From Streptomyces clavuligerus (GTDB taxonomy: Bacteria; Actinomycetota; Actinomycetes; Streptomycetales; Streptomycetaceae): 64,000 bases of DNA. Position 1 is the stretch's first letter. Each line of letters opens with the position of its first letter. A program made the position numbers and the translations under genes. Below are positions 1 through 54,420 of the stretch, one piece after another. Location: positions 5,567,001 through 5,631,000 of the forward strand of contig NZ_CP027858.1 in the NCBI RefSeq assembly GCF_005519465.1, in the 5' to 3' direction. Under the pieces are notes generated by a model, which had not been told where the DNA came from, ran no database searches, and worked only from the letters and a program-made list of their open reading frames with translations.

Positions 1-1736
1 ACCCCTTCGACCTGGTGGCCTCGCACCCCGGGGTGCAGGCCCGGCAGCAGGGGCTCGACGGCGTCAGCGCCGTCTGCCGCCGCTGCCCCGTGGTCCGCTC
101 CTGCGGCGGCGGCCTCTACACCCACCGCTACGGCGCCGCCCACGGCTTCGACCACACCTCCGTCTACTGCGCCGACCTGGAGGCACTGATCCGGGGGGTC
201 GAACGGCGCGCCGCGCCCGGACTGATCCCCGCCGCCGTCACCTCCACCGCCGCCCTGCGGACCGAGCACCGGGAGCTGACCCGGATCCTGCTCGCCCTGC
301 TCCACACCGAACTCGCCGGGCGCGGCGGCGCCGCCTGGGACCGCGCCTGGGAGCTGGCCCTCGCCCTCGACACCGACGGCGGGCCTCTCGACGCCGTCTG
401 CGCCCACCCCTACACCCACACCTGGCTGCGCCGCACCCTCGCCGCGCTCGCGGCGGACCGCCCCGGGGCCGTCCCCGAGGCCCTGCGGCTCTCCGCCCAT
501 CTCGCCGCCGCCCTGATCCGCGCGGGCGACCCCACCCCCGTCCGGGTGGTGTACGAGAACGGGGTGCTCCAGCTCCCCGCGCTCGGACGGCTGCGTCTCG
601 GCGGCTCCGGGGCGTCCGGGGAGGCGGACATCCGGGCCGAGGAGGGGGGGTTCTCGGTCACGCCCGACGGCCGCCCCCCGATCCGGGTCGCGCTCGGTTC
701 CCCGGCCGCCGCCGACGAGCGCTGGGACCCGGTGCGCACGGTCGGCGGCCGGGGCGGTGCGCCCCTGCTGCTCCTCGACGATCTCGACCCCCACCGGGAC
801 TGTTTCGGTCCGCCGGTACGGGGGCGGCTCACCGGGGCCGAGGCCGCCGCGTGGGACGAACGGCTGACCGGGGCATGGGAGCTGCTGCTCCGGGCCGCCC
901 CCCGGCAGGCCGCCGAGGCCGCCGCCGCGCTGACGACGCTCACCCCGCTGGACCCCGGGACCCGCGCCGCGGCGCCGGTCCCCGGCCGGTCCGCCACATC
1001 CGAGGCGGCCGTCGGCGGGCACGGCCACGGTGCGCTGGGGCTCGCGCTGCCGGGCACCCCCGGCGAGCTGGCGGCCCTGCTCCTGCGCGGTCTGGCGGCG
1101 GCCCGGCTCGCGGCCCTGCTCGACGTGTGCGACCTGTACGCCGAGGACGGCTGGTGGCGGTATCCGGCCCCGTGGCAGGAGGGCGCGGAGGTCCCCGTCT
1201 CCGAACTGCTCGCGGGCGCCGTGGAACGGGTCGCCCTCGCCGCCCTGGACCCCGGCGCGGCCGCTCCCGCGCGAGCCGCCCTGGACGCCCTCGACGGGGC
1301 GCCGGAGCTGTCCGTCGCCGGACACCGGTTCCTCGCCCGGCTCCGGGAGGAGTTGACGGAACCGGCGGAACGGGCCGACCGCCCCGGGGCCGCCCCGGCC
1401 CGCCCCGGCGCTGCGGGCCCGGCATCCCCGACGGGGGGAGCCCCTGCCGGGGGAGCGCCCGTCCCGGAGGCCCCGGCCCCTTCTTCCGCTGGGGCCCCGG
1501 CTCCGGCGGCTCCGGCTCCGGGAGGCCCGACGGGCGGCGTCCCGGCTCCGGTGGCTCCCCCCTCGGAAGCGCCTTTCCCCGGAGCCCCGGCCTCCGCCCC
1601 CGTCGACGGAGTCCCCGCGCTGTCCGCCCCCGCCGATGCCGCCCCGTCCGCCCCGGCCCCCGGGGCTCCCCCCGCGCCCGCCCTGGACGGGACCGGAGCG
1701 GGACCGGCCGGACCGCCGGCCCCCGGCCATGGCTGA
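1..1736 (+). CDS. fxsB: FxsB-type radical SAM/SPASM cyclophane maturase, C-terminal part (5' end off window)
   Basis: Reading frame is open from the left edge, so only the C-terminal ~577 residues are present. It begins in the SPASM region, with Cys-rich motifs VCRRCPVVRSCGGGLY and a Cys 30 residues on (bases 72-168) that ligate an auxiliary Fe-S cluster. FxsB enzymes crosslink aromatic side chains of a short FxsA precursor to ring carbons or beta carbons, making cyclophanes. After SPASM comes the helical domain that in the family carries HExxH; here the aligned stretch is LLLRGLAAARLAALLDV (about 1077-1127), so the metal-binding motif is gone. The last ~110 residues are Pro/Ala/Gly low complexity. 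The stop overlaps the next start by 8 nt, implying coupled translation. Radical SAM CxxxCxxC core and FxsA lie outside the window. Confidence 0.85.
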   Translation, partial: PFDLVASHPGVQARQQGLDGVSAVCRRCPVVRSCGGGLYTHRYGAAHGFDHTSVYCADLEALIRGVERRAAPGLIPAAVTSTAALRTEHRELTRILLALLHTELAGRGGAAWDRAWELALALDTDGGPLDAVCAHPYTHTWLRRTLAALAADRPGAVPEALRLSAHLAAALIRAGDPTPVRVVYENGVLQLPALGRLRLGGSGASGEADIRAEEGGFSVTPDGRPPIRVALGSPAAADERWDPVRTVGGRGGAPLLLLDDLDPHRDCFGPPVRGRLTGAEAAAWDERLTGAWELLLRAAPRQAAEAAAALTTLTPLDPGTRAAAPVPGRSATSEAAVGGHGHGALGLALPGTPGELAALLLRGLAAARLAALLDVCDLYAEDGWWRYPAPWQEGAEVPVSELLAGAVERVALAALDPGAAAPARAALDALDGAPELSVAGHRFLARLREELTEPAERADRPGAAPARPGAAGPASPTGGAPAGGAPVPEAPAPSSAGAPAPAAPAPGGPTGGVPAPVAPPSEAPFPGAPASAPVDGVPALSAPADAAPSAPAPGAPPAPALDGTGAGPAGPPAPGHG

Positions 1737-2661
1737 GCCGGACCCGCCCACCGCCGCCGTGCCGCCCGCCCCCGCCGTCCGGCCGCTCCCGCCGGACGGC
1801 TCACCGGGCCTGCTCCGGGCCGCCCCGGAGCCCTCCGTCCGCACCGCCCCCGTGGACGGCATCCGGCCAAGGGGAAGCACGGCCGCGCGAGGCGGACCCG
1901 GCCGCGCACACCTCGCGCGCTCCTTCCGCGCCCTCGGCGTGCGGCCCGGCACGACCCTGCTGGTCCATGCCGGGCTCCGGGGCACGGGGGTCCCCCCGGA
2001 CACCCTCCGGCAGGCGCTCACCGACGCCCTCGGCCCCGGCGGCACCCTGGTCGTCCCCGCCTTCACCGCGGCCAACTCCGACACGTCCGACGCCTACCGC
2101 GCCCTGGTCGCGGGCCTCACCCCGGACGGGGCACGGGCCTTCCGCGCGGCCATGCCGCCCTTCGACGCGGCCACCACCCCGAGCCAGGGCATGGGCAGGC
2201 TGGCCGAGTCTGTCCGCACCGCCCCCGGAGCCGTCCGTTCCGCCCATCCGCAGACCTCGTTCGCCGCCGTCGGACACCACGCCGCGGAATTGCTCGCGCA
2301 CCATCCGCTCCACTCGCACCTCGGCGAGAACTCCCCGCTGGGCGCTCTCTACCGCGCCGCCGCGCACGTTCTGATGATCAATGTGGGATTCGAGGTCTGC
2401 ACCGCATTTCATCTCGCCGAATACCGGGTCAACGCGCCCCTTCGGACGTATCGTTGTGTAGTTCCGACGCCCGACGGGGGTAAGAAATGGACGGAGTACG
2501 AGGACGTCCGCCTCGACGACAGCGACTTCGGCGCGATCGGCGCCGCGTTCACCAGGGGAATGGCACGGAAGGGACGTCTGGGAAACCGTTCGGCGCTTCT
2601 CTTTCCGCTCCGGGCCGCCGTTGATCACGCGGTGGAGTGGATGACTGAAAAACGGCACTGA
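1729..2661 (+). CDS. AAC(3)-family N-acetyltransferase in Fxs cluster
   Basis: 310 residues. The start ATG overlaps the fxsB stop. Motifs of the AAC(3)/YokD fold are clear: LLVHAGLRGTG near the N-terminus, GTLVVPAFT, the HPQTSFAAVG block, HLGENSPLGALY and the CoA-site region NVGFEVCTAFHLAEYR with the conserved His-Leu-Ala-Glu. Family members move an acetyl group from acetyl-CoA to an amine. Residues 1-60 are Pro/Ala-rich linker, unlike classical aminoglycoside resistance enzymes, which start close to the HxSLR motif. Being translationally coupled to a peptide maturase, it more likely acylates the Fxs product or an intermediate than gives drug resistance; that role is inference. An upstream in-frame start at 1636 is less likely because it would lie deep inside fxsB. 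Confidence 0.88.
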   Translation: MAEPDPPTAAVPPAPAVRPLPPDGSPGLLRAAPEPSVRTAPVDGIRPRGSTAARGGPGRAHLARSFRALGVRPGTTLLVHAGLRGTGVPPDTLRQALTDALGPGGTLVVPAFTAANSDTSDAYRALVAGLTPDGARAFRAAMPPFDAATTPSQGMGRLAESVRTAPGAVRSAHPQTSFAAVGHHAAELLAHHPLHSHLGENSPLGALYRAAAHVLMINVGFEVCTAFHLAEYRVNAPLRTYRCVVPTPDGGKKWTEYEDVRLDDSDFGAIGAAFTRGMARKGRLGNRSALLFPLRAAVDHAVEWMTEKRH

Positions 2662-2771
2662 ACGACAGGACAGCGGGGGTCGGAACTGGAGCGCGCTCCA
2701 GAATGATGGCATCGCCGTGCCCGAACGGAACGAGGGCGCGGAGGCGGGTGTTCACACAGGACGGGGGTCGT

Positions 2772-4106
2772 GTGTCGGATTCAGCGCAACGTGCGCCGGA
2801 CCATCGGCCGTACTTTTTCTTGAGTTATGCACATACTCCTCGGTACGGGGGCGGGGGCCCCGATCCGGACATGTGGGTGGAACGGCTCTTCCGGGATCTG
2901 TGCGGCCATGTGATGGCCATGACCGACCTTCCGGCGGGAGCCCCCGCCGGATTCATGGACCGGGAGATCCGTTCGGGTGAGGGCTGGTCGGAACGGCTCG
3001 GCGAAGCGCTCGCCACCTGCCGGGTCTTCGTCCCGCTCTTCTCCCCGCGCTACTTCGCCAGCGAGATGTGCGGAAAGGAGTGGTACGCCTTCGCCCAGCG
3101 GGCGATCTACCACCAGGCCAAGCACAATCGCTCGGCCGAGGCCATCGTGCCCGCGCTCTGGGTCCCCATGCCGCCGGAGCACATGCCCGGACCGGCCAAG
3201 CGGCTCCAGTTCAACCACCGGGACTTCGGCGACCGCTATGTCACCGACGGCCTCTACGGCCTCATCAAACTCCGCATCTTCGCCGAGGAGTACGAGGCGG
3301 CCGTCTACGAGCTGGCCAAACGTATCGTCAGCGTGGCCGACTCCACCCGGGTCGCCCCCGGCAGCCCCGTCGACTACGGACTCGCGCCCTCCGCCTTCGG
3401 CAGGACCAGTGGCGCGTCCCGCCCCATGCATCTGACGATAGCCGCCCCCACCCGCCACGACCTGCCGGAGGGGCGCGCCCCCGACTACTACGGCAAGCAG
3501 TCCCAGGACTGGAACCCGTACCACCCGGACTCGGCCAGACCGCTCGCCTATATCGCCCAGGACCTCGTCCGCTCGCTCGACTACCAGGCCACCGTCTCCT
3601 CGTTCGACCACGAGCTGCCGCCCGCGCCGGGCCAGCCGCCCGGCCGGCCCGAGATCCTGCTGGTCGACCGGTGGGCCCTGGAGGACGACGACCGCTGTGC
3701 CCGGCTGGCCGCCTTCGACGCCACCCCCAGGCCCTGGGTCGGCGTCGTCGTGGCCTGGAACCGGGAGGACCCGCAGAGCCGGATATCCGAGGCCCAGCTC
3801 GTCGAGAAACTGGAGCGCACCATGCCGCACCAGATGAGCCAGGGCCGTGCCGCCTGCCGCGCCGCCGCCCGCGGCGTCTTCAGCATGGAGGCCTTCGGGC
3901 AGATCCTGCCCCAGGTCGTGGAGGCGGCGGCACAGGAGTATCTGCGGCACGCCACCGCGTTCGCACCCAGCCCGTCGCCCGGGGCCATCCGCCCCGTCCG
4001 GGCCCGGCTCGCCGGTCCCACGGCCGGTTTCGGTTCCACCCCCTGCACCAGCGCCACCCGCGGCACACCCCCCGATGCGGAGGACACGGATGACAGCCAG
4101 TCGTGA
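2772..4106 (+). CDS. fxsC: TIR-like protein FxsC
   Basis: 444 residues from GTG 2772 (AGGAC about 10 nt upstream); an ATG at 2703 would add 23 residues without domain content. Residues ~11-120 form a TIR-like domain beginning PYFFLSYAHTPRYG, with PLFSPRYFASEMCGKEW at ~87-104. SEMCGKE (97-103) matches the SxxCxxE motif that holds the catalytic glutamate (Glu103) in NADase TIR domains. The second half (~200-400) matches the FxsC C-terminal domain, with YYGKQSQDWNPYHPDS and EILLVDRWALEDDD; the tail is Pro/Ser/Thr-rich. FxsC accompanies FxsB and FxsT in actinomycete Fxs loci; its biochemical role is not established. The stop lies 17 nt inside fxsT. Confidence 0.86.
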   Translation: MSDSAQRAPDHRPYFFLSYAHTPRYGGGGPDPDMWVERLFRDLCGHVMAMTDLPAGAPAGFMDREIRSGEGWSERLGEALATCRVFVPLFSPRYFASEMCGKEWYAFAQRAIYHQAKHNRSAEAIVPALWVPMPPEHMPGPAKRLQFNHRDFGDRYVTDGLYGLIKLRIFAEEYEAAVYELAKRIVSVADSTRVAPGSPVDYGLAPSAFGRTSGASRPMHLTIAAPTRHDLPEGRAPDYYGKQSQDWNPYHPDSARPLAYIAQDLVRSLDYQATVSSFDHELPPAPGQPPGRPEILLVDRWALEDDDRCARLAAFDATPRPWVGVVVAWNREDPQSRISEAQLVEKLERTMPHQMSQGRAACRAAARGVFSMEAFGQILPQVVEAAAQEYLRHATAFAPSPSPGAIRPVRARLAGPTAGFGSTPCTSATRGTPPDAEDTDDSQS

Positions 4107-7100
4107 CGGACGCATCGTCACCTTCTACTCGTACAAGGGCGGCACCGGCCGCACCATGGCCCTCGCCAACACGGCATGGATCCTCGCCGCCAACGGGCAG
4201 CGCGTCCTCGCCGTGGACTGGGATCTGGAGGCGCCCGGACTGCACCGCTTCTTCCATCCCTTTCTCGACCCCTCGACCCTCGGGGCCACCACCGGGGTCA
4301 TCGATCTGATCACCGAGTACGCCTGGGCCGCCATCACACCCGACACCGGCCGCCGGGACGACTGGCACGTGGACTACGCGCGTATCCAGCCGCACGCCGT
4401 CTCCCTCACCCCGGAGAACCTGGGCTGGGAGTTCCCGGGCGGCGGCACCCTGGACTTCGTCTCCGCGGGCCGGCAGAACCGCGAGTACTCCGCCACCGTC
4501 TCCACGTTCGACTGGGACAACTTCTACGACCGGCTCGGCGGCGGCCTCTTCTTCGACGCGCTGCGCGAGGACATGAAGGCCCACTACGACTACGTCCTCA
4601 TCGACAGCCGGACCGGGCTGAGCGACATCGCCGACATCTGCACCGTCCATCTCCCGGACATCCTGGTCGACTGCTTCACCCTCAGCGACCAGTCCATCGA
4701 CGGGGCCGCCGCCGTCGCCCGCCAGATCGACGAGCGCTACGGCGGACGCGGCATCCGGATCTACCCCGTCCCCATGCGCATCGACGAGGGCGAGAAGGAG
4801 AAGGCGGACGCCGGACGGGCCCTGGCCCGGGTCAAGTTCGACCGTTTCCCCACCGGACTGAGCGGCGACGAACTCACCTCCTACTGGGGCGCCGTGGAGA
4901 TCCCCTACCGCCCCTACTACGCCTACGAGGAGACCCTCGCCACCTTCGGTGACGAGACCGGACTCACCAACTCCCTGCTCTCCGCCTTCGAACGGCTCAC
5001 CGCCGTCGTCACCGGGCAGCAGATCACCGCCATGCCCCCGATGAACGACGAGATCCGGCTGCGGATCAAGGACGCCTTCACCCGGCGCAGGCCCGCGCTC
5101 CCCGCCGATCTGTTCCTCAGCTATGTCGCCGAGAACCGGATGTGGGCCGACTGGATCGAGTCCCTGCTCACCCAGGCCGGATTCCGGGTCGTCCCCCGGG
5201 ACGTCTCCGCCGGGCCCGGCACCGCCGACGAGGAGCACCCCGCCCAGAACCCCACCCGGACCGTGGTGCTCCTCTCCGCCGCCTATCTCAAGTCCCCCCG
5301 GGCGGTCGAGCTGTGGCAGCGGACCTCCGCCGAGGACGCCGGGGGCTCGCGCCACCACCTCCTCCCCGTCCGGGTCGGCGACGTCCGGCTCAGCGCGCCC
5401 TACATCGACCGCAACCCCGTCGACCTCTTCCGGCTCGACGAGGCCCAGGCCACCGGCGCCCTGCTGCGCGCACTCGACCGCCCCGTCCAGCTCGCCGACA
5501 CCGGCCAGGCACCCGGACCGCGCTTCCCCGGCACCGTCCCCAAGATCTGGAACGCGCCGCCCCGGAACCCCGGCTTCACCGGCCGTTCCACCGCCCTGGA
5601 GCAGATGCGCGACCGGCTCGGCGGCGGGATGTCGGTGGCCGCCGTGCTGCCCCAGCCGCAGACCCTCTACGGCCTCGGCGGCGTCGGCAAGACCCAGGTC
5701 GCCATCGAGTACGTGCACCGCTTCATGGCCGACTACGACCTGGTCTGGTGGATCTCCGCCGAACAGCCCGACGACGTCATCGCCGGGCTCGCCGAACTCG
5801 CCGTCCGGCTCGGCGCCCAGGGCGGCGAGGACATGGCCGCCGCCTCCCAGGAGGCCATCGACCTGCTGCGGCGCGGGGCGCCCCACGCCCGCTGGCTGCT
5901 GGTCTTCGACAACGCCGACGACCCCGAGCAGCTCAAACGCTTCTTCCCGCCCCAGGGCCCCGGCCATATCCTCGTCACCTCCCGCAACCAGACCTGGTCG
6001 CAGTACGGCGACGCCCTCGCCATCGACGTCTTCACCCGCGAGGAGTCCGTCGAACACCTCCAGCGGCGCGCCCGCGGGCTCACCACCGAGGACGCCGACC
6101 AGGTCGCCACCGCCGTCGGCGATCTGCCGCTCGCCGTCGAGCAGGCCGCCGCCTGGATCGCCGAGACCGCGACCCCGGTCGCCGAGTATCTGGACCGGCT
6201 GCGCGAGCAGGCCACCAGCGTGCTCGCCCTCAACCAGCCCGCGGGCTACCCCGAGCCGGTCGCCGCCACCTGGAACGTCTCCATCGAGAAGCTGAAGGAG
6301 CGCTCACCTGCGGCGGTCCGGCTGCTTCAGCTCTGCGCCTTCTTCGCCCCCGAGCCGATCTCCGCGAACCTCCTCTACAGCAAGGAGATGATCGACGCCC
6401 TCAAGCCGTACGACGCCTCCCTCCAGGAGAAGCTGGTGCTCGGCCGGGTGATCCGGGAGATCGGCCGGTTCGCCCTCGCCAAGGTCGACCAGGTCAACAA
6501 CAGCATCCAGGTGCACCGGCTGGTCCAGGCGGTGATCCGGGCCCAGCTCACCGAGGAGGAGCAGCGCGACGCCCGGCACGCCGTCCACCGGGTGCTCGCC
6601 GGGGCCCGGCCCGACGACGACGAGCCGATCGACAACCCCGGCACCTGGGAGCGGTTCGCCACCATCTGGCCGCATCTGGCCCCGTCGGACGCGCACAACT
6701 GCACCGAGCCCGAGACCCGCAGGCTCCTCATCGACCGGGTCCGCTATCTGTGGAAGCGCGGCGACTGGGTGACCGCCCGGGGCATCGCCGACGAGGTGCG
6801 CGAGGACTGGCGGGCCATGCTCGGCACCGACGACCTCCAGTACCTCTACCTCTGCTTCCACATCTCCAACCTCTACCGCTCCCAGGGCCGCTACAAGGAG
6901 GCCAGGACGCTGGACGAGGAGACCCTGGAGCGCCAGCGGCGGGTGCTCGGCGCCACCCATCCGCACACCTATATGACCACCAGCGGACTGGCGATGGACC
7001 TCGGCACCCTCGGCCACTACAGCAGGGCGATGGAGCTGGCCCGGGAGGCCCACGACGGCTTCAGCCAGATCTTCCACGAGTCCCACCCCCGTACCCTGGC

Positions 7101-8034
7101 CGCCGCCAACAACCTCGCGCTCAATCTGCGGATGATGGGCCAGTACTCCCGGGCCCGCGAGATCGACCAGGACGTCTTCGACCGGCGGACGGAAGTCCTG
7201 GGCGCCGAACACCCGTACACCCTCTCTTCCGCCACCTCCCTCGCGCGCGACCTGCGCGAGATGGGGCGGTACGACGACTCCGTGACCGTGCTCGCCCGGA
7301 CCTACGAGCTGTACAAGCAGCGGCTCGGACGGACCTTTCCGGGTACCCTCGCGGCGGCCAAGAGCCTGGCCGTCTCGCTGCGCAGGGCGGGCCGCCTCGA
7401 CGACGCCCGGCGGCTCACCACGGCCACCCGCAACCGCTACCGCTCCCGCTACACCTCCGCCAACCCGGACTCCCTCGCCTGCGATCTCAACCTCGCGGCC
7501 GATCTCTTCGCGGCGGGGGAACCCGTCGCCGCGCGGGACCTGGCCCAGGAGATCGTGGACCAGTACCGGGTGATGCCGGGGGAGCGGCACCCGTACACCC
7601 TCGCGGCAATCAACAACCTGGGCATCTACCAGTGGGGCTGCGGCGACCCGGAGGCGGCCGAGGAGCTGCTGACCGCGGTGGGCGTCCAGATGCGGGAAGT
7701 CCTCGGCGACGGCCATCCGCACTACCTCTACAGCACCATCAACCTCGCCAACGCCAAGGCGGACCTCGGGGCCCTGGCGGAGGCGCTGGAGATCGAGCAG
7801 CGCTCGGTGACCCGGCTGCGCGAGGCGCTGGGGGCGCACCACCCCGAGGTGCTGGGCGTGACCTCGAACGTCGCGGTCACCCTGGGCGGGCTGGGGCGCA
7901 AGGCGGAGGCGGCCCGGCTGCGCACGGAGACCGTGGAGGAGCTGACCCGTCAGCTCGGTGAGGAACACGCGCTGGCCCGGCTGGCCCGGGACGAGCGGCG
8001 GGTGCACCGCGACCTCGAACCGCTCGCCGTCTGA
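4090..8034 (+). CDS. fxsT: FxsT: KGG-TGR ATPase / TIR / NB-ARC / TPR fusion
   Basis: 1314 residues, starting with ATG inside the end of fxsC. Residues 8-330: ParA/MinD-like ATPase with an atypical P-loop KGGTGRT (16-22), VDWDLEAPGL and a DYVLIDSRTG Walker B. Residues ~338-460: TIR-like domain, PADLFLSYVAENRMWADW; at the SxxCxxE position it reads SPRAVELW, with Leu replacing Glu. Residues ~490-760: NB-ARC STAND ATPase with Walker A GLGGVGKT (528-535), WLLVFDNADD, ILVTSRNQ and DLPLAVEQAAAW. Residues ~913-1300: about nine 42-residue TPR units of the H-P-x-T-L type. This matches the FxSxx-COOH system TPR protein. STAND-TPR architecture suggests ligand-triggered oligomerisation; the trigger and output are unknown. 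A strong hairpin follows the stop. Confidence 0.9.
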   Translation: MTASRDGRIVTFYSYKGGTGRTMALANTAWILAANGQRVLAVDWDLEAPGLHRFFHPFLDPSTLGATTGVIDLITEYAWAAITPDTGRRDDWHVDYARIQPHAVSLTPENLGWEFPGGGTLDFVSAGRQNREYSATVSTFDWDNFYDRLGGGLFFDALREDMKAHYDYVLIDSRTGLSDIADICTVHLPDILVDCFTLSDQSIDGAAAVARQIDERYGGRGIRIYPVPMRIDEGEKEKADAGRALARVKFDRFPTGLSGDELTSYWGAVEIPYRPYYAYEETLATFGDETGLTNSLLSAFERLTAVVTGQQITAMPPMNDEIRLRIKDAFTRRRPALPADLFLSYVAENRMWADWIESLLTQAGFRVVPRDVSAGPGTADEEHPAQNPTRTVVLLSAAYLKSPRAVELWQRTSAEDAGGSRHHLLPVRVGDVRLSAPYIDRNPVDLFRLDEAQATGALLRALDRPVQLADTGQAPGPRFPGTVPKIWNAPPRNPGFTGRSTALEQMRDRLGGGMSVAAVLPQPQTLYGLGGVGKTQVAIEYVHRFMADYDLVWWISAEQPDDVIAGLAELAVRLGAQGGEDMAAASQEAIDLLRRGAPHARWLLVFDNADDPEQLKRFFPPQGPGHILVTSRNQTWSQYGDALAIDVFTREESVEHLQRRARGLTTEDADQVATAVGDLPLAVEQAAAWIAETATPVAEYLDRLREQATSVLALNQPAGYPEPVAATWNVSIEKLKERSPAAVRLLQLCAFFAPEPISANLLYSKEMIDALKPYDASLQEKLVLGRVIREIGRFALAKVDQVNNSIQVHRLVQAVIRAQLTEEEQRDARHAVHRVLAGARPDDDEPIDNPGTWERFATIWPHLAPSDAHNCTEPETRRLLIDRVRYLWKRGDWVTARGIADEVREDWRAMLGTDDLQYLYLCFHISNLYRSQGRYKEARTLDEETLERQRRVLGATHPHTYMTTSGLAMDLGTLGHYSRAMELAREAHDGFSQIFHESHPRTLAAANNLALNLRMMGQYSRAREIDQDVFDRRTEVLGAEHPYTLSSATSLARDLREMGRYDDSVTVLARTYELYKQRLGRTFPGTLAAAKSLAVSLRRAGRLDDARRLTTATRNRYRSRYTSANPDSLACDLNLAADLFAAGEPVAARDLAQEIVDQYRVMPGERHPYTLAAINNLGIYQWGCGDPEAAEELLTAVGVQMREVLGDGHPHYLYSTINLANAKADLGALAEALEIEQRSVTRLREALGAHHPEVLGVTSNVAVTLGGLGRKAEAARLRTETVEELTRQLGEEHALARLARDERRVHRDLEPLAV

Positions 8035-8115: not shown

Positions 8116-9036
8116 TCACTCCTCCACCAGCCAGGTCAGCGCCCGGGGCAGCGCGTGCAGCGCGTCGAAGTGCGCGGCGCTCGGCTCCAGGACCGCTGTC
8201 GCCCCGGGGATGCGCTCCGCGAGCCAGCGCGAGTGCCCCACCGGGGAGAACACGTCCTTCTCCCCGTGCCAGAGCATCACCGGGGCCTTGATGTCCGCCG
8301 GGTCGAACCCCCAGGGGCTGCTGAACGCCAGCGCGTCGTCGATCCAGCCGTACGCCGAGGTCCGCAGCGCCTCCTGGTAGTTGCGCAGCAGCATGCCGCG
8401 CACCCCCGCGTCCTGGACCACCATCCGGTCCGACTCCGTCAGCTCCTTGCGCAGGTCGTTGAGGAGCCGGATCGGGTCCTCGCGGATCTGGGCCGACCGC
8501 AGGATGAACCGTTCGGTCAGCACGTCCGGGTGGTCCGACGCGAAGGTGTACTCCAGGACGTTGGAGGCCGCCATCCCCTCGAACCAGTCGAGTCCGGCCG
8601 CGTCCCGGGGTGCCAGCGTCACCAGCGCGGCGGCCCGGGTGACCCGTTCCGGCAGCAGCGCGGCGCAGGCCAGCGCGTGCGGGGCCCCGCCCGAGCGGCC
8701 CACCACCGCGAACCGGTCGAGCCCCAGCTCGTCGGCGATGTCCCGGACATCCCGGGCGACATCGGCGACACTGCGCCCGGGCAGCCGGTCCGAACCGCCG
8801 TAGCCGGGGCGGTCATAGGCGATGAGCTGGGTGCGCCGCTGGTAGAGCACCATGCCGCGCGGCGCCGGGCCCAGTCGGCAGCCGGGGGTGCCGTGCAGCA
8901 GGAAGACGGGCCTGCCGTGCGGATCCCCCAGCCGCTCCACCATCAGATGCCGCCCGTCGGACGTGCGCACCCGATGTCGCAACCCCCGCCCCCTTCGCCG
9001 TCTGCCGTCGTCCGGGTCCTCGTGGGCCTCTGGCAC
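8116..9036 (-). CDS. alpha/beta-fold hydrolase
   Basis: 306 residues. The oxyanion motif LLHGTPGCR (~45-53), DRPGYGGSD, the nucleophile elbow VVGRSGGAPH (catalytic Ser), acid in WHGEKDVFSP and His in AAHFDALH give a complete Ser-Asp-His triad. The family includes esterases, haloperoxidases and hydrolytic dehalogenases, and the substrate cannot be read from sequence. It is convergent with fxsT and separated by a terminator, so it is probably not part of the Fxs operon. The N-terminal ~20 residues are Arg/Gly-rich with no signal peptide, so it is cytoplasmic. Confidence 0.85.
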   Translation of the reverse strand: MPEAHEDPDDGRRRRGRGLRHRVRTSDGRHLMVERLGDPHGRPVFLLHGTPGCRLGPAPRGMVLYQRRTQLIAYDRPGYGGSDRLPGRSVADVARDVRDIADELGLDRFAVVGRSGGAPHALACAALLPERVTRAAALVTLAPRDAAGLDWFEGMAASNVLEYTFASDHPDVLTERFILRSAQIREDPIRLLNDLRKELTESDRMVVQDAGVRGMLLRNYQEALRTSAYGWIDDALAFSSPWGFDPADIKAPVMLWHGEKDVFSPVGHSRWLAERIPGATAVLEPSAAHFDALHALPRALTWLVEE

Positions 9037-9203: not shown

Positions 9204-10301
9204 TCACGGGGCCGTGGTCCCGGCGGGGGCGGCGGGCCGGTCGCCGGTGAGGGTGCGGGCCGTCGCGCACACCAGGGTGACCACGGAGCCCGCCACCGCC
9301 CACGCGGCGAGGACCAGCAGCGGGCCCCCCACCGCATGGCCGTGGAAGTAGCTGATCGAACGGGCGGCGAAGGTGCCCGCGCCCGGTGGCAGGGCGGGTC
9401 CGATCGCGCTCCAGAACGGCGGCAGCATCGGCCAGGGGTAGGCACCGCCCGCGCTGGGGTTGCCGAGGACGACCACGAGCGCGATGGCCAGCCCGATCCC
9501 GACGATGCCGAGCAGCCCCTGGAGGGCGAGGGTGATCGCGCCGACCGTGAACACCAGCAGGGTGCCGAGGCCCCACAGCGGCGCGACGCCGCCCGGCAGC
9601 GCCTGAAGGACGGGACCGGCGATCACGGTGCCCAGCAGCCCGGCGGCGATCGAGTACAGCAGCAGCACCCCGAGCCGGATCAGGGCCCGGTGGATGTTGG
9701 CGGGCCGGGCCCCGGCGCTGATGGCGAGGACCGCGGCGCACAGATAGCCGCCCACGCACCAGCCGATGACCAGATAGAACGAGGAGAGTCCGCGCGCGTC
9801 CCCGGCGGCGTTGGGCACGACGTCGGTCACCCGGACCGTCCGCCCCTGCCGCTGTTCGGCGGCCCCGACGGCCCCGGCCAGCGCGTCGGCCAGGGAGGCG
9901 CCCGCCGCGCTCGCGACCAGCAGCCGGTCGGTGGTGCCCCGGGGGTCGACGATCAGGGCCCCGTCGACGTCCCGGTTCTCGATCTGCCGCCGGGCCTCCG
10001 CCTCGTCCGCCACGGCCCGGGGGTCGAGCGGATCGCCGGGCAGCGCGGCGAGCCCGCGCACGGTCCCGGCGGTGGTCAGCGGGTCCGGGGCGGCGACCGC
10101 CAGGGGCACCTCATGGGGCCTGGGCTCGTGGAAGGCGCCGATGTACGAGGTGATGAACGCGAGCTGGAGCAGCAGCACCCCGATGACGAGCAGGGCGGCC
10201 CGCACGCTCACCGCGTCCCTGACCTCGGCGAGAAAGCCGGTGGGCGCGGCGGGTCCGGCCGTGGAGGCGCCGTCCGGGGGGCCGTCCGATGTGCGCTTCA
10301 T
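9204..10301 (-). CDS. DUF3533 / ABC-2-like membrane protein
   Basis: 365 residues. One transmembrane helix near residues 33-52, then a ~110-residue extracytoplasmic domain (AVAAPDPLTTAGTVRGL, ENRDVDGALIVDP), then five or six helices to the C-terminus. This is the layout of the DUF3533/YhgE-Pip family related to ABC-2 permeases, some of which are phage receptors or export-associated proteins. No ATPase is adjacent. It precedes the alpha/beta hydrolase on the same strand with a 167-nt gap. Function is unknown; the topology and domain assignment are reasonably firm. Confidence 0.72.
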   Translation of the reverse strand: MKRTSDGPPDGASTAGPAAPTGFLAEVRDAVSVRAALLVIGVLLLQLAFITSYIGAFHEPRPHEVPLAVAAPDPLTTAGTVRGLAALPGDPLDPRAVADEAEARRQIENRDVDGALIVDPRGTTDRLLVASAAGASLADALAGAVGAAEQRQGRTVRVTDVVPNAAGDARGLSSFYLVIGWCVGGYLCAAVLAISAGARPANIHRALIRLGVLLLYSIAAGLLGTVIAGPVLQALPGGVAPLWGLGTLLVFTVGAITLALQGLLGIVGIGLAIALVVVLGNPSAGGAYPWPMLPPFWSAIGPALPPGAGTFAARSISYFHGHAVGGPLLVLAAWAVAGSVVTLVCATARTLTGDRPAAPAGTTAP

Positions 10302-10585: not shown

Positions 10586-11563
10586 TCAGATGGCCGATCC
10601 GCCGGCCCGGCGGCGGGCGGAGGCGAACATCCCGGCCGCGCCGAGCGCGAGCGCCGCCGCACCGCCGATGGCGATGTACATGCTGGTGCTGTCGCCGCCG
10701 GTCTCGGCCAGGGCCTGCTCGCTCGTGGCGGCCAGCTCGGTGGTGTGCGCGACCTGCGTCTGCGGGGCGTTGCCGCCACCGGTCCGCTGGGCGACGTGCT
10801 CGGCGTTCGCCTTCTTCTCGGCCGCGGTGTCACCGCCGTGGCCGCCGTGGTCGACGGAGGAGTTGCCCGCGCCCTGCTCGATGGCGTTCTCGCTGGGGGC
10901 CTGGGCCGCCGGGGCCCCGGCCGGGGCCTTGCCGCCGAAGACCACGTCGGAGCAGGTGTAGAACGCCTCGGGGGAGTCCGAGCGCTGGAGGATCGAGTAG
11001 ATCAGATGACGGCCGGTCCGGTTCGGCACCTGGCCGTCGAAGACATAGGAGCCGTTCTCCAGCCGCGGGTCGGTGACCTTGGCGAAGGGCTGGGCCTCCA
11101 GGTCGGACCACTTCAGCGGCTTGGTCGGGTCGTACCCCTCGCGGGTGATGTACAGCTCCAGCGTGCCCCGGTGGGGGGCGGTGGCCCGCCAGCGGAAGGT
11201 CTTGCTGCCTGCGGCCATCGGGCTGGAGGGCCAGTCGGCGCGGGGCGCGTCGAGGCCCTTGTACTTGTCGCGGCCGACGCTGCACAGCTTGCCGTCGGGG
11301 ATGATCTGGCGGTGGCGGCCCGCGGCGTCGCCGATGTTCACCTCGTTCCAGTCGTACAGCGGCTGGGTGCCCCCGGCCGCGACCATAGCCTTGCAGGCGG
11401 CGGAGTCCGGGCTCTCCGGGCCCTCGGCGAAACACGCGGACACCCGGCTGACCGGGTCGAGCATCGAGCCGTGGGCTGCGGCGGGCGTCACGGTCAGCGC
11501 GGTCAGGGCGAGCGGGACGACACCCAGGGCGGCGGCGACGGCCGCCGTGCGGCGAGTGGTCAT
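10586..11563 (-). CDS. secreted AA10 lytic polysaccharide monooxygenase with LAETG wall anchor
   Basis: 325 residues. ATG at 11563 preceded by AAGGAGAG. A Sec signal peptide ends PAAA before His31, so His31 becomes the mature N-terminus, as the copper histidine brace requires; the second ligand is His131 in TAPHRG. The rest follows AA10 enzymes: SMLDPVSR, DWNEVNIGDA, HRQIIPDGKLCSVG, GRHLIYSILQRSD. AA10 enzymes oxidatively cleave chitin or cellulose. A Ala/Gly/Gln-rich linker leads to LAETG (285-289), a 20-residue hydrophobic segment and a basic tail, the signal for class E sortase. The enzyme should therefore be fixed to the wall and not released. No carbohydrate-binding module is present. 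Confidence 0.93.
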   Translation of the reverse strand: MTTRRTAAVAAALGVVPLALTALTVTPAAAHGSMLDPVSRVSACFAEGPESPDSAACKAMVAAGGTQPLYDWNEVNIGDAAGRHRQIIPDGKLCSVGRDKYKGLDAPRADWPSSPMAAGSKTFRWRATAPHRGTLELYITREGYDPTKPLKWSDLEAQPFAKVTDPRLENGSYVFDGQVPNRTGRHLIYSILQRSDSPEAFYTCSDVVFGGKAPAGAPAAQAPSENAIEQGAGNSSVDHGGHGGDTAAEKKANAEHVAQRTGGGNAPQTQVAHTTELAATSEQALAETGGDSTSMYIAIGGAAALALGAAGMFASARRRAGGSAI

Positions 11564-12504
11564 GGGAACTCTCCTTGATGAGTGGGGGGTTCCGGGGCCG
11601 GTCCGACAGCTCGCGCCGGACGTACGGACTCGTCGGCACTTGTTCGAACCAGCCCCGGTGAGCAGCAAGTTAGCTGTTCGAAACCGGGGAGTCGCCAGGG
11701 AGAGGGACCGGGGCGCGGTCCTTATCCTTGCCTTAAGGAAGCGCTAAGCGGCGGCTGAGGAAACCGTGGTGAGGACCGGCCGAGCCGTGGCGGGGAGCCT
11801 GTGGGACGTTCGCGAAGGTAACCGAGCGCACCGCTGTGACCTGCGGACGAGGCCCAGGGGGCGGGCGTACCGCCGGGGTGGACGTGCAGTGGTCAACCAT
11901 GTACGTGGAGCGCCCTCGCCCGTCCGGATGAACCGGTCGGGGCTGGTCTGTACCGGCTCGTCACCTTCCGGTGCGAGCGTGCGGAAAGCGTGCTTCCGGA
12001 TCGACCCGCCGGGCCCGTGGACGGGAGGGTCCGGGCCGCCAGGAGGGGAGACCCGGACCGGTCCGGCGGGAGTACGCGGGCGGCTTCCGGGGCGGTGGGG
12101 CATGGGCCCCAGGGCCGTCGCGCCGGGTTCGGCCAGGAGCGGGGCCTGCGGTTCCCGATCGAACGGACGGGGCGTCCGGGGCCGGGGTGGTGAGGGGGAG
12201 CCGACCGCGCCCGCACGGTGTCCGCACGGGCGCCGGAGCCCGGTGCGCCACCCGGCTCGCGCGCGGGTGGGGCCTGCGCGCGACCACGTCCGCGCGCACG
12301 CATCACCGGGTGATGGCCGGGGGAGGAACCAGGGGAGGGACCAGGGGAGGAATACGGTCAACTCCCGGCCCGCGCACTGGCCGAGTCCGATTCGGGCCTC
12401 GCCCGGGACCTGTAGCTTTGCCTCGTCAGCGGGACGATTACCAGCCGACGATCACACCCGGCCCCGGACCGGCACGACCGGTGGACCGAGCGAAGGAGTC
12501 ATCC
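11564..12504. other. gene-free stretch between LPMO and PPOX genes
   Basis: About 940 bp between divergent genes. Several open frames occur in all phases but their translations are Arg/Pro/Gly-rich with no family resemblance or ribosome-binding site. Visible structure: the TGTTCGAA pair near the left end, a CCTTAAGG palindrome within ccttgccttaaggaagcg near 11730, and the purine-rich direct repeat GGGGAGGAACCAGGGGAGGG near 12320-12345. Probably two promoter regions plus non-coding sequence. Confidence 0.5.
11641..11685. promoter_or_regulatory. paired TGTTCGAA(A)CC direct repeats upstream of LPMO
   Basis: TGTTCGAACC (11641-11650) and TGTTCGAAACC (11675-11685) lie in the same orientation 34 bp apart, about 80-120 bp upstream of the LPMO start. 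Each contains a TTCGAA palindrome. They could be operator sites for the LPMO gene. The classic chitinase-type TGGTCTAGACCA repeat is not seen. Confidence 0.4.
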
Positions 12505-13084: not shown

Positions 13085-13158
13085 GCGGGGTCGTAGCACA
13101 GAGGCAGTGCGCCTACACGACATGGAGGAGGACGCCGGTTCGAATCCGGCCGCCCCGC
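13085..13158 (+). tRNA. atypical tRNA-like gene (apparent GAC/Val anticodon)
   Basis: D arm GCAC/GTGC (13096-13110), anticodon arm CCTAC/GGAGG (13112-13128) with one mismatch, 5-nt variable loop, and a perfect T arm GCCGG-TTCGAAT-CCGGC (13134-13150) make a cloverleaf. The acceptor GCGGGGT (13085-13091) pairs with GCCCCGC (13152-13158), but this leaves two extra bases before the usual U8-A9 and one after the T arm. The anticodon loop ACGACAT lacks U33 (C instead) and would read GAC. No CCA is encoded. Either a degenerate tRNA or a tRNA-like RNA. A TAGGAT -10-like box lies about 15 nt upstream. Confidence 0.5.
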
Positions 13159-13234
13159 CCCTCTCTCCTTCCTGGACGGGCCCCGGCTGTCGTGGCCCCG
13201 GGCCACGACGCCCCGCTGAGCGGCGGGCCGCCGC

Positions 13235-13924
13235 TCAGCCCCCGCCCACCAGCCGGTACCGCCGCTCCGGGCGGCCCGTGCCGCCGTAGCGCAGGCTCAC
13301 CTCGACCCGCCCGGTCTCCGCGAAGTACTCCAGGTACCGCCGCGCGCTCACCCGGGACAGCGACCCCGCCTCCGCGCACTCCGTCGCCGACAGATCCCCC
13401 CGGTGCTCCCGCAGAATCCGCTCCACCAGCTCGGCCGTGTGCGCCGCGAGCCCCTTGGGCAGCTCCCGCGAGCCCGGCGGCCGGGTGCCGAAGATCTGGT
13501 CCACGTCCTCCTGGCGGGCCTCGCCGAGGCGGTCGAACCGTGACCGCAGCGCCGCGACATGACGCAACTGCTCTTGGAGCGCCGACTGGTTGAACGGCTT
13601 GATCAGATAGTGCAGCGCCCCCGCCCGCAGCGCGGCCCGGACCAGCCCCGCGTCCCGGGCGGCCGTGATGAACAGGGCGTCCGCGCTCGGCCGCGCCGTG
13701 TCCAGCGCCTCGGCGGCCCGCAGCTCCCGTAGCACCATCAATCCATCCATATCGGGCAAATAGATATCGAGCAGCACCAGGTCGGGCCGCAGCCGCTCGG
13801 CCGCGCTCAGGGCCTCCGCACCGCTGTGCGCGACTCCGGCGACCCGGAACCCCGCCGTGGAGGCCACATAGCGGCTGTGCAGCTTGGCGACCATGAAGTC
13901 GTCGTCCACCACCAGCACGTTCAT
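13235..13924 (-). CDS. CitB/DcuR-type response regulator
   Basis: About 229 residues from ATG 13924 (a GTG 9 nt upstream is also possible). The receiver domain has the acidic pair VVDDDF, phosphoacceptor Asp in LVLLDIYLPDMDGL, Thr/Ser in LFITAARD and Lys in YLIKPF. The C-terminal DNA-binding part (~150-225), GDLSATECAEAGSLSRVSARRYLEYF, is the HTH of the CitT/DpiA/DcuR class that regulates C4-dicarboxylate and tricarboxylate uptake. It is divergent from tctCBA with a 127-bp shared promoter region, so it very probably controls that transporter. The sensor kinase normally paired with it is not adjacent. Confidence 0.88.
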   Translation of the reverse strand: MNVLVVDDDFMVAKLHSRYVASTAGFRVAGVAHSGAEALSAAERLRPDLVLLDIYLPDMDGLMVLRELRAAEALDTARPSADALFITAARDAGLVRAALRAGALHYLIKPFNQSALQEQLRHVAALRSRFDRLGEARQEDVDQIFGTRPPGSRELPKGLAAHTAELVERILREHRGDLSATECAEAGSLSRVSARRYLEYFAETGRVEVSLRYGGTGRPERRYRLVGGG

Positions 13925-13945
13925 CACGGGCACACGCTAAGGCGC

Positions 13946-54332: not shown

Positions 54333-54420
54333 TGGTGTCCGAGGGGGGACTTGAACCCCCACGCCCGATAAAGGGCACTAGCACCTCAAGCTAGCGCGTC
54401 TGCCATTCCGCCACCCGGAC
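54333..54420 (-). tRNA. tRNA-Leu (anticodon GAG)
   Basis: Minus strand. Acceptor GTCCGGG pairs with CTCGGAC (one G-U); D loop AATGGCAGACGC; anticodon stem CTAGC/GCTAG with loop TTGAGGT giving GAG; long class II variable arm; T arm GGGGG-TTCAAGT-CCCCC; discriminator A and encoded CCA. Decodes CUC/CUU, the main Leu codons in this GC-rich genome. Confidence 0.95.

Follow-up and report, generated by a model that had tools for sequence, protein, structure and literature searches.

We propose, with a probability of roughly 0.38, that a locus of Streptomyces clavuligerus built around the FxsA, FxsB, FxsC and FxsT proteins would act as an intracellular, peptide-gated alarm of a Thoeris-like kind, passing a signal from TIR to SLOG to SLATT. 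That the parts belong to one cassette is well supported; the chain of action is what we infer from the sequences. The window under study is a stretch of 64,000 nucleotides (contig NZ_CP027858.1, forward strand, positions 5,567,001 to 5,631,000; G000:C1:5567001-5631000 in our coordinates), and its positions 1-8034 hold the distal part of this locus (the home locus), a filing made by an earlier sequence-only reading and borne out by strong family matches for all four proteins. The stretch L005 includes the upstream DNA, window position p corresponding to L005 p+15000. The genes are the following.

L005:13921-14082, plus strand: fxsA, 53 aa, with an AAGGAG ribosome site and the end ATFNSAL
L005:14103, plus strand: start of fxsB by translation, 898 bases before the window
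3..1736, plus strand: 3' part of fxsB, radical SAM/SPASM cyclophane maturase of the FxsBH form with a degraded HExxH domain
1729..2661, plus strand: AAC(3)-family (Antibiotic_NAT) N-acetyltransferase (AAC), 310 aa (PF02522, E 4.8e-74)
2772..4106, plus strand: fxsC, a TIR-like domain with a catalytic-type Glu and a C-terminal flavodoxin/receiver/TIR-like domain
4090..8034, plus strand: fxsT, the FxSxx-COOH system tetratricopeptide repeat (TPR) protein, with KGGTGR ParA-like, degenerate TIR, NB-ARC and DUF7779 domains and kinesin-light-chain-like TPRs
8116..9036, minus strand: alpha/beta hydrolase with a Ser-Asp-His triad, convergent with fxsT

The four window genes from fxsB to fxsT had been described as overlapping and co-directional; they do run in one direction, and overlap is found at two of their three junctions. 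The AAC starts at ATG 1729 within ATGGCTGA and overlaps the fxsB stop at 1734-1736, and fxsT starts at ATG 4090, preceded by GGAGG, with a 17-nt overlap with the fxsC stop. At the AAC/fxsC junction there is no overlap: 110 nt separate the AAC stop at 2661 from GTG 2772, the likely fxsC start, since relatives measure 443-446 aa. We prefer ATG 4090 for fxsT over the GTG at 3847 chosen earlier, which is unlikely. The part of FxsB inside the window, from its left edge to 1736, comprises residues ~300-877, and both elements predicted to lie further upstream are present, namely a small precursor, the 53-aa FxsA with its F-x-S-x-x end FNSAL (TIGR04268, 34.6 bits versus a cut-off of 28), and the CxxxCxxC radical SAM core, which reads CDLACDHC in FxsB and lies inside L005.

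The FxsA/B/C/T core is of a known kind. Curated NCBIfam models cover FxsA, FxsB, FxsC, the FxSxx TPR protein and the inactivated FxsBH, and the home proteins exceed their cut-offs. Kaur et al. 2020 (PMC7159879) report standalone FxSxx systems from actinobacteria, in which an AP-ATPase bears a MinD/ParA-like domain, and expect the product to be a peptide toxin or signal; the joining of a peptide maturase to immune-like modules had thus been seen rightly from the sequence and was already published. The likeness to their FxSxx-COOH system covers the precursor with C-terminal FxSxx, FxsB, FxsC and an AP-ATPase/TPR protein with an inactive MinD/ParA-like domain, and section 24 of that paper names no AAC(3), SLOG, SLATT or alpha/beta hydrolase partner. 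Within the open-licence literature we found no description of a cassette with SLOG, SLATT, AAC (in cis or trans) and hydrolase, although an earlier mention is possible. The SLOG-SLATT pair, the link to the hydrolase and the cis/trans behaviour of the AAC were also absent from the sequence-only reading, whose FxsA/B/C/T filing stands.

Among the matches listed, FxsB scored above its cut-off in 179 of 295 genomes of the genus; across the phylum it did so in 11 of 396. From among the matches listed we took 120 FxsB loci, favouring high scores, and added four named loci and the home locus. After removal of one duplicate, the 124 loci comprised 107 long-form loci, in which the HExxH motif was degraded (89 'lost' loci) or intact (18), and 17 with a short FxsB; 20 further stretches, drawn from other families, from weaker FxsB types and from one SLATT site without FxsB, were analysed separately, and all locus counts hold for a non-random sample. 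FxsB, FxsC and the NB-ARC/TPR part of FxsT co-occur in 107 of the 124 loci, and chance association is therefore excluded.

The home FxsB matches TIGR04269 as a whole protein (585.6 bits versus a cut-off of 370), with an intact radical-SAM/SPASM core. Its extension matches NF040587 (460 bits), which NCBIfam names the 'inactivated beta-hydroxylase' form, and this predicted inactivation modifies the picture given by the sequence-only reading. The HExxH metal-binding motif is missing at home, where its columns read RGLAA, and it has been degraded in several ways, with SEFQR, RGFQY and QEWQY elsewhere; on the tree, the intact and lost states require five changes. PMC12636437, in the relevant part, reports a radical SAM-HExxH fusion that serves as a beta-hydroxylase for a cyclophane peptide, and ChlBH, as cited there, likewise joins a radical SAM/SPASM core to a C-terminal HExxH-type domain, whereas in the home FxsB the motif is replaced and NCBIfam assigns the inactivated form. 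The zincin domain, taken for a peptidase in the corresponding part of PMC7159879, is degraded in the home FxsB. Precursors also differ between the two classes: the middle residue of FxS is Gln in 15 of the 16 found at intact loci versus 5 of 82 at lost loci (one duplicate included). The family of MscB, IPR026335, we take to be the FxsB family. MscB forms Phe-C4 to Ser-Cbeta cross-links between residues i and i+2 (PMC11002830, in the portion concerned), a geometry that fits F-x-S, and the home FxsB is likened to it by motif. Upstream of fxsA lies a conserved GAGTAAAGTC box (L005:13846-13855 at home; TAAAGTC in 51 of 81 loci), followed in many loci by a possible operator, an inverted repeat of GCA-N4-TGC-like form. 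Four genomes (G108, G254, G228 and G248) have four or five FxsB matches each among the matches listed, and G108 and G228 combine HExxH-intact, lost and short forms within one genome.

FxsC (NF040588, 238.6 bits; TIGR04276, 216.2 bits) and FxsT (NF040586, 1053.5 bits) score above curated cut-offs, and FxsT additionally matches the KGGVGR-ATPase model NF047398 (145.7 bits), TIR_2 and NB-ARC. With the TIR catalytic-type Glu motif placed in the two alignments where we presume it to lie, FxsC carries this Glu in 99 of 108 rows, and the aligned column of the FxsT TIR holds E 28, D 25, A 18 and T 12 of 108, the window's copy having E. Since the FxsT TIR is without a conserved catalytic-type glutamate, FxsC is the likelier TIR enzyme as judged from these alignments. 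The best matches of an FxsC structure model (mean pLDDT, the predicted local distance difference test, of 67) were plant TIRs (E 2.4e-3). In FxsT, all 111 rows have the Arg of the ParA-like motif KGGTGRT, and the NB-ARC P-loop (GxGGxGKT) reads GLGGVGKTQ and is conserved at the 90% level over 111 rows. The TPRs match kinesin light chain, whose own TPRs bind short peptides, C-terminal ones included; by analogy, peptide-binding TPRs would fit the strictly C-terminal FxSxx motif.

Upstream of the home fxs operon, a SLATT protein with two transmembrane segments (2TM) and a SLOG-fold protein are encoded tail to tail. The former scores above cut-off for SLATT_3 and SLATT_1 (123.2 and 119.0 bits), with hydrophobic segments at 35-63 and 213-239; the latter is a single domain of 161 aa with the SLOG Rossmannoid fold. 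Thoeris consists of the TIR protein ThsB and the SIR2-SLOG protein ThsA, whereas the home SLOG is separate, single-domain and placed beside a 2TM SLATT, and the home locus adds a ribosomally synthesized and post-translationally modified peptide (RiPP) and a STAND protein. No SIR2 match, and hence no fused SIR2-SLOG effector of the ThsA type, was present among the home proteins scanned. The home genome has three further SLOG-like paralogue matches (G000:C2:413116-413313, C2:420133-420600 and C1:2815893-2816354), two of them ~7 kb apart on the second contig.

The AAC matches PF02522 with 249 bits (cut-off 25), and its RSxHP, GExSP and FHLAEY motifs are conserved; H113, H168, E171 and Y172 (positions in the aligned domain) are invariant in all 64 rows. 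Its gene separates fxsB from fxsC in 56 of 89 lost loci and in 1 of 18 intact ones. Two of 17 short loci have it upstream of fxsB, and three of 18 intact loci have it in reverse orientation, 9-10 kb downstream. An AAC is likewise encoded by L152, an intact locus from another family, and by two clusters of a different Fxs architecture (L163, L165, L167, L169 and L170), which places the NLR gene first and has a short FxsB and an HExxH-family-like domain as its own gene, with an AAC in L163 and an AAC plus SLATT in L170. In the AAC tree, in-operon AACs mostly form one clade (51 rows, support 100/99), and a wider Fxs clade is supported at 91/85; a sample of 15 ordinary AAC(3)-family sequences of the genus falls outside it. 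As the L163 and L170 AACs are also outside, the AAC was probably recruited more than once.

Five genomes with an Fxs-clade AAC away from the operon prompted a search, with one such orphan AAC, of genomes whose operon has none. The orphan was found at 310 bits or more in 26 of 28 genomes picked for a lost operon without AAC and, with the line drawn at 300 bits, in none of 50 genomes with a linked AAC (0/28 and 0/22; Fisher test for 26/28 versus 0/50, p 1e-18, kinship ignored), in none of 51 without an FxsB match among the matches listed (0/19 and 0/32) and in none of 15 with only a weaker-type FxsB. Thirteen further genomes of other locus classes yielded it in two, G057 and G276, in both cases beside an HExxH-intact Fxs locus, and in G070 the orphan is near a second, HExxH-intact Fxs locus. 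The two misses were G251 and G054, the operon of the latter being without FxsC and FxsT in the fetched stretch (L056). Three of the 33 AAC-less lost loci belong to genomes with an AAC in another Fxs locus (G098, G264, G275), and for G004 and G041, which also have AAC-less lost loci, PF02522 was without a match at E 1e-20 and the stretch contained no FxsC.

Orphan AACs occupy four sites. A YigZ/IMPACT-like gene adjoins 17 of the 20 fetched at length (L202-L218) and also the three reverse AACs, where an HExxH-intact Fxs operon stands beside it (L071, L095, L102); one further site is common to G006 and G210, one is in G267 and one in G188, where the ~1.5 kb flanks show no match to any of six other sites beyond the AAC itself. 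The orphan state requires four changes on the tree (bootstrap range 4-4). The orphans group with the three reverse AACs in a single clade (support 99), so the orphan is a replacement by a relative and not a moved local gene. Since the AAC, in cis or in trans, occurs mostly with lost loci, these data suggest that acetylation took over as the tailoring step after loss of HExxH. Lysine is not conserved in FxsA: of the 52 precursors encoded in AAC operons, 16 are without Lys in the last 30 residues, and no single one of the last 45 positions has Lys in more than 28. Should FxsA be the substrate, this makes the alpha-amine of the processed peptide the likely target.

In 98 of 107 long-form loci, 14 of the 18 HExxH-intact ones among them, the operon has an alpha/beta hydrolase gene within 2 kb, and the Ser-Asp-His triad of this hydrolase is conserved. 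In a search of 35 genomes, all 14 matches in 11 FxsB genomes adjoin FxsB, and of the 24 FxsB-less genomes, 5 gave a match, which was strong in three. By its position, the hydrolase is a candidate for peptide processing.

In the alarm that we favour, FxsB would cross-link Phe to Ser at the FxSxx end through a bond of the type reported for MscB. In place of the dead hydroxylase, it would be the AAC that tailors the peptide, most likely at the N-terminal alpha-amine once the leader has been removed, a step that the hydrolase may perform. The TPRs of FxsT would read the mature peptide or a disturbance of it, and FxsT would assemble via NB-ARC and bring FxsC TIRs together; these would make an ADP-ribose-type nucleotide to be sensed by SLOG, whereupon SLATT would permeabilise the membrane and stop the cell. 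The fully specified version, in which an N-acetylated cyclophane peptide, made with an AAC(3)-fold enzyme in place of the dead HExxH hydroxylase, licenses an NLR-like protein, and a TIR nucleotide then drives immunity through stand-alone SLOG and SLATT, we consider unlikely in all its particulars.

Several observations weigh against the alarm or its acetylation step. The SLOG-SLATT pair is absent from the fetched stretches of 18/18 HExxH-intact and 17/89 lost loci, and FxsC and FxsT are kept in most loci without it, so that the pair is at best an optional output arm; a downstream placement of SLATT is best explained by a single in-place inversion of fxsA-T and adds no independent recruitment. 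The FxsC Glu is missing in nine of 108 rows (Q 8, H 1). As to the AAC, five of the 26 orphan genomes preceded the idea, one being the query's own, which leaves 21 of 23 as the test; the 300-bit line was set after the scores had been seen, the best control, an in-operon AAC, reaching 284; and G251 has an AAC neither in cis nor in trans. Only three independent AAC pairs are supported, all 3/3 as predicted, for which the sign test cannot fall below its p of 0.25. The association of AAC with lost loci may reflect shared ancestry, and FxsA may not be the AAC substrate. Finally, presence of FxsB in 179 of the 295 genus genomes resembles a housekeeping or developmental system more than mobile defence.

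This last point leads to the alternative that fares best, which we regard as possible though somewhat improbable: an intracellular developmental or physiological signalling module of multicellular actinomycetes, in which FxsT/FxsC would have the acetylated cyclophane peptide as a messenger-like ligand and no killing would occur. It agrees with the wide spread, the stable gene order and tree-like inheritance, and with the finding of neither a dedicated RiPP exporter nor a curated peptidase family among the adjacent genes scanned; conflict systems of such a kind are, moreover, tied to multicellularity in the pertinent text of PMC7159879. TIR, STAND, SLOG and SLATT are, however, recurrent conflict-system parts (PMC9503650 and, for SLATT, PMC7159879, in the passages concerned).

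A cluster for a secreted RiPP, antibiotic or pheromone, with FxsC and FxsT for self-protection or regulation, is an explanation to which we give little credit. A precursor, a cyclophane maturase and a tailoring acetyltransferase are the usual make-up of such clusters, FxsB relatives make triceptides (PMC11002830, in part), and beyond the hydrolase a membrane protein (9204-10301, minus strand) with a weak ABC-2 match (21.3 bits, below the cut-off of 31.6) may be an exporter. However, in the fetched stretches only 20 other loci show its frame, no other transporter match occurred among the neighbours scanned, and in long-form loci the NB-ARC/TPR protein is conserved as much as the maturase.

Equally hard to credit is a separate job for the orphan AACs, their match to AAC-less operons being lineage history only. 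The switches are few, the sign test sits at its floor, 21 of 25 trans rows are one clade, the orphans form their own clade and are not copies of the local cis gene, and no fxsA-type promoter box was found upstream of them. Against this stand the absence of orphans from all linked-AAC and FxsB-less genomes searched and the use of three further sites by the three small switches. The idea that the AAC is an unrelated resistance gene present in the operon by chance has next to no weight left: the family name and the label aminoglycoside N(3)-acetyltransferase given to close relatives in source databases speak for it, but the protein scores only 147.2 bits with the NCBIfam AAC(3) model NF033082 (cut-off 270), its best PDB relative is FrbF (3sma, E 6e-54), an AAC(3)-fold N-acetyltransferase with common motifs, the in-operon clade is distinct from other sampled Streptomyces AAC(3) sequences, and presence in cis and in trans is complementary with respect to the Fxs operon. 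FrbF presumably serves phosphonate biosynthesis.

FxSxx systems are common in Streptomyces, and the AAC, the SLOG-SLATT pair and the hydrolase are likely their missing parts, the naming of which provides a testable chain of enzyme substrate, signal and effector. If the AAC is a peptide tailoring enzyme, aminoglycoside-resistance labels in databases mislead resistance counts, and an NLR-like protein with a RiPP for its internal ligand would, if true, be a new way to gate immunity.

Other features of the window and of L005 are given below.

10586-11668, minus strand: lytic polysaccharide monooxygenase (LPMO_10, PF03067, E 1e-56)
13085-13161, plus strand: tRNA-Val (gac)
13235-13933, minus strand: DpiA-like response regulator (PF00072, E 4e-23; HTH_64)
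54333-54420, minus strand: tRNA-Leu (gag)
L005:6802-9584, plus strand: two tandem luciferase-like monooxygenase open reading frames, upstream of the cassette

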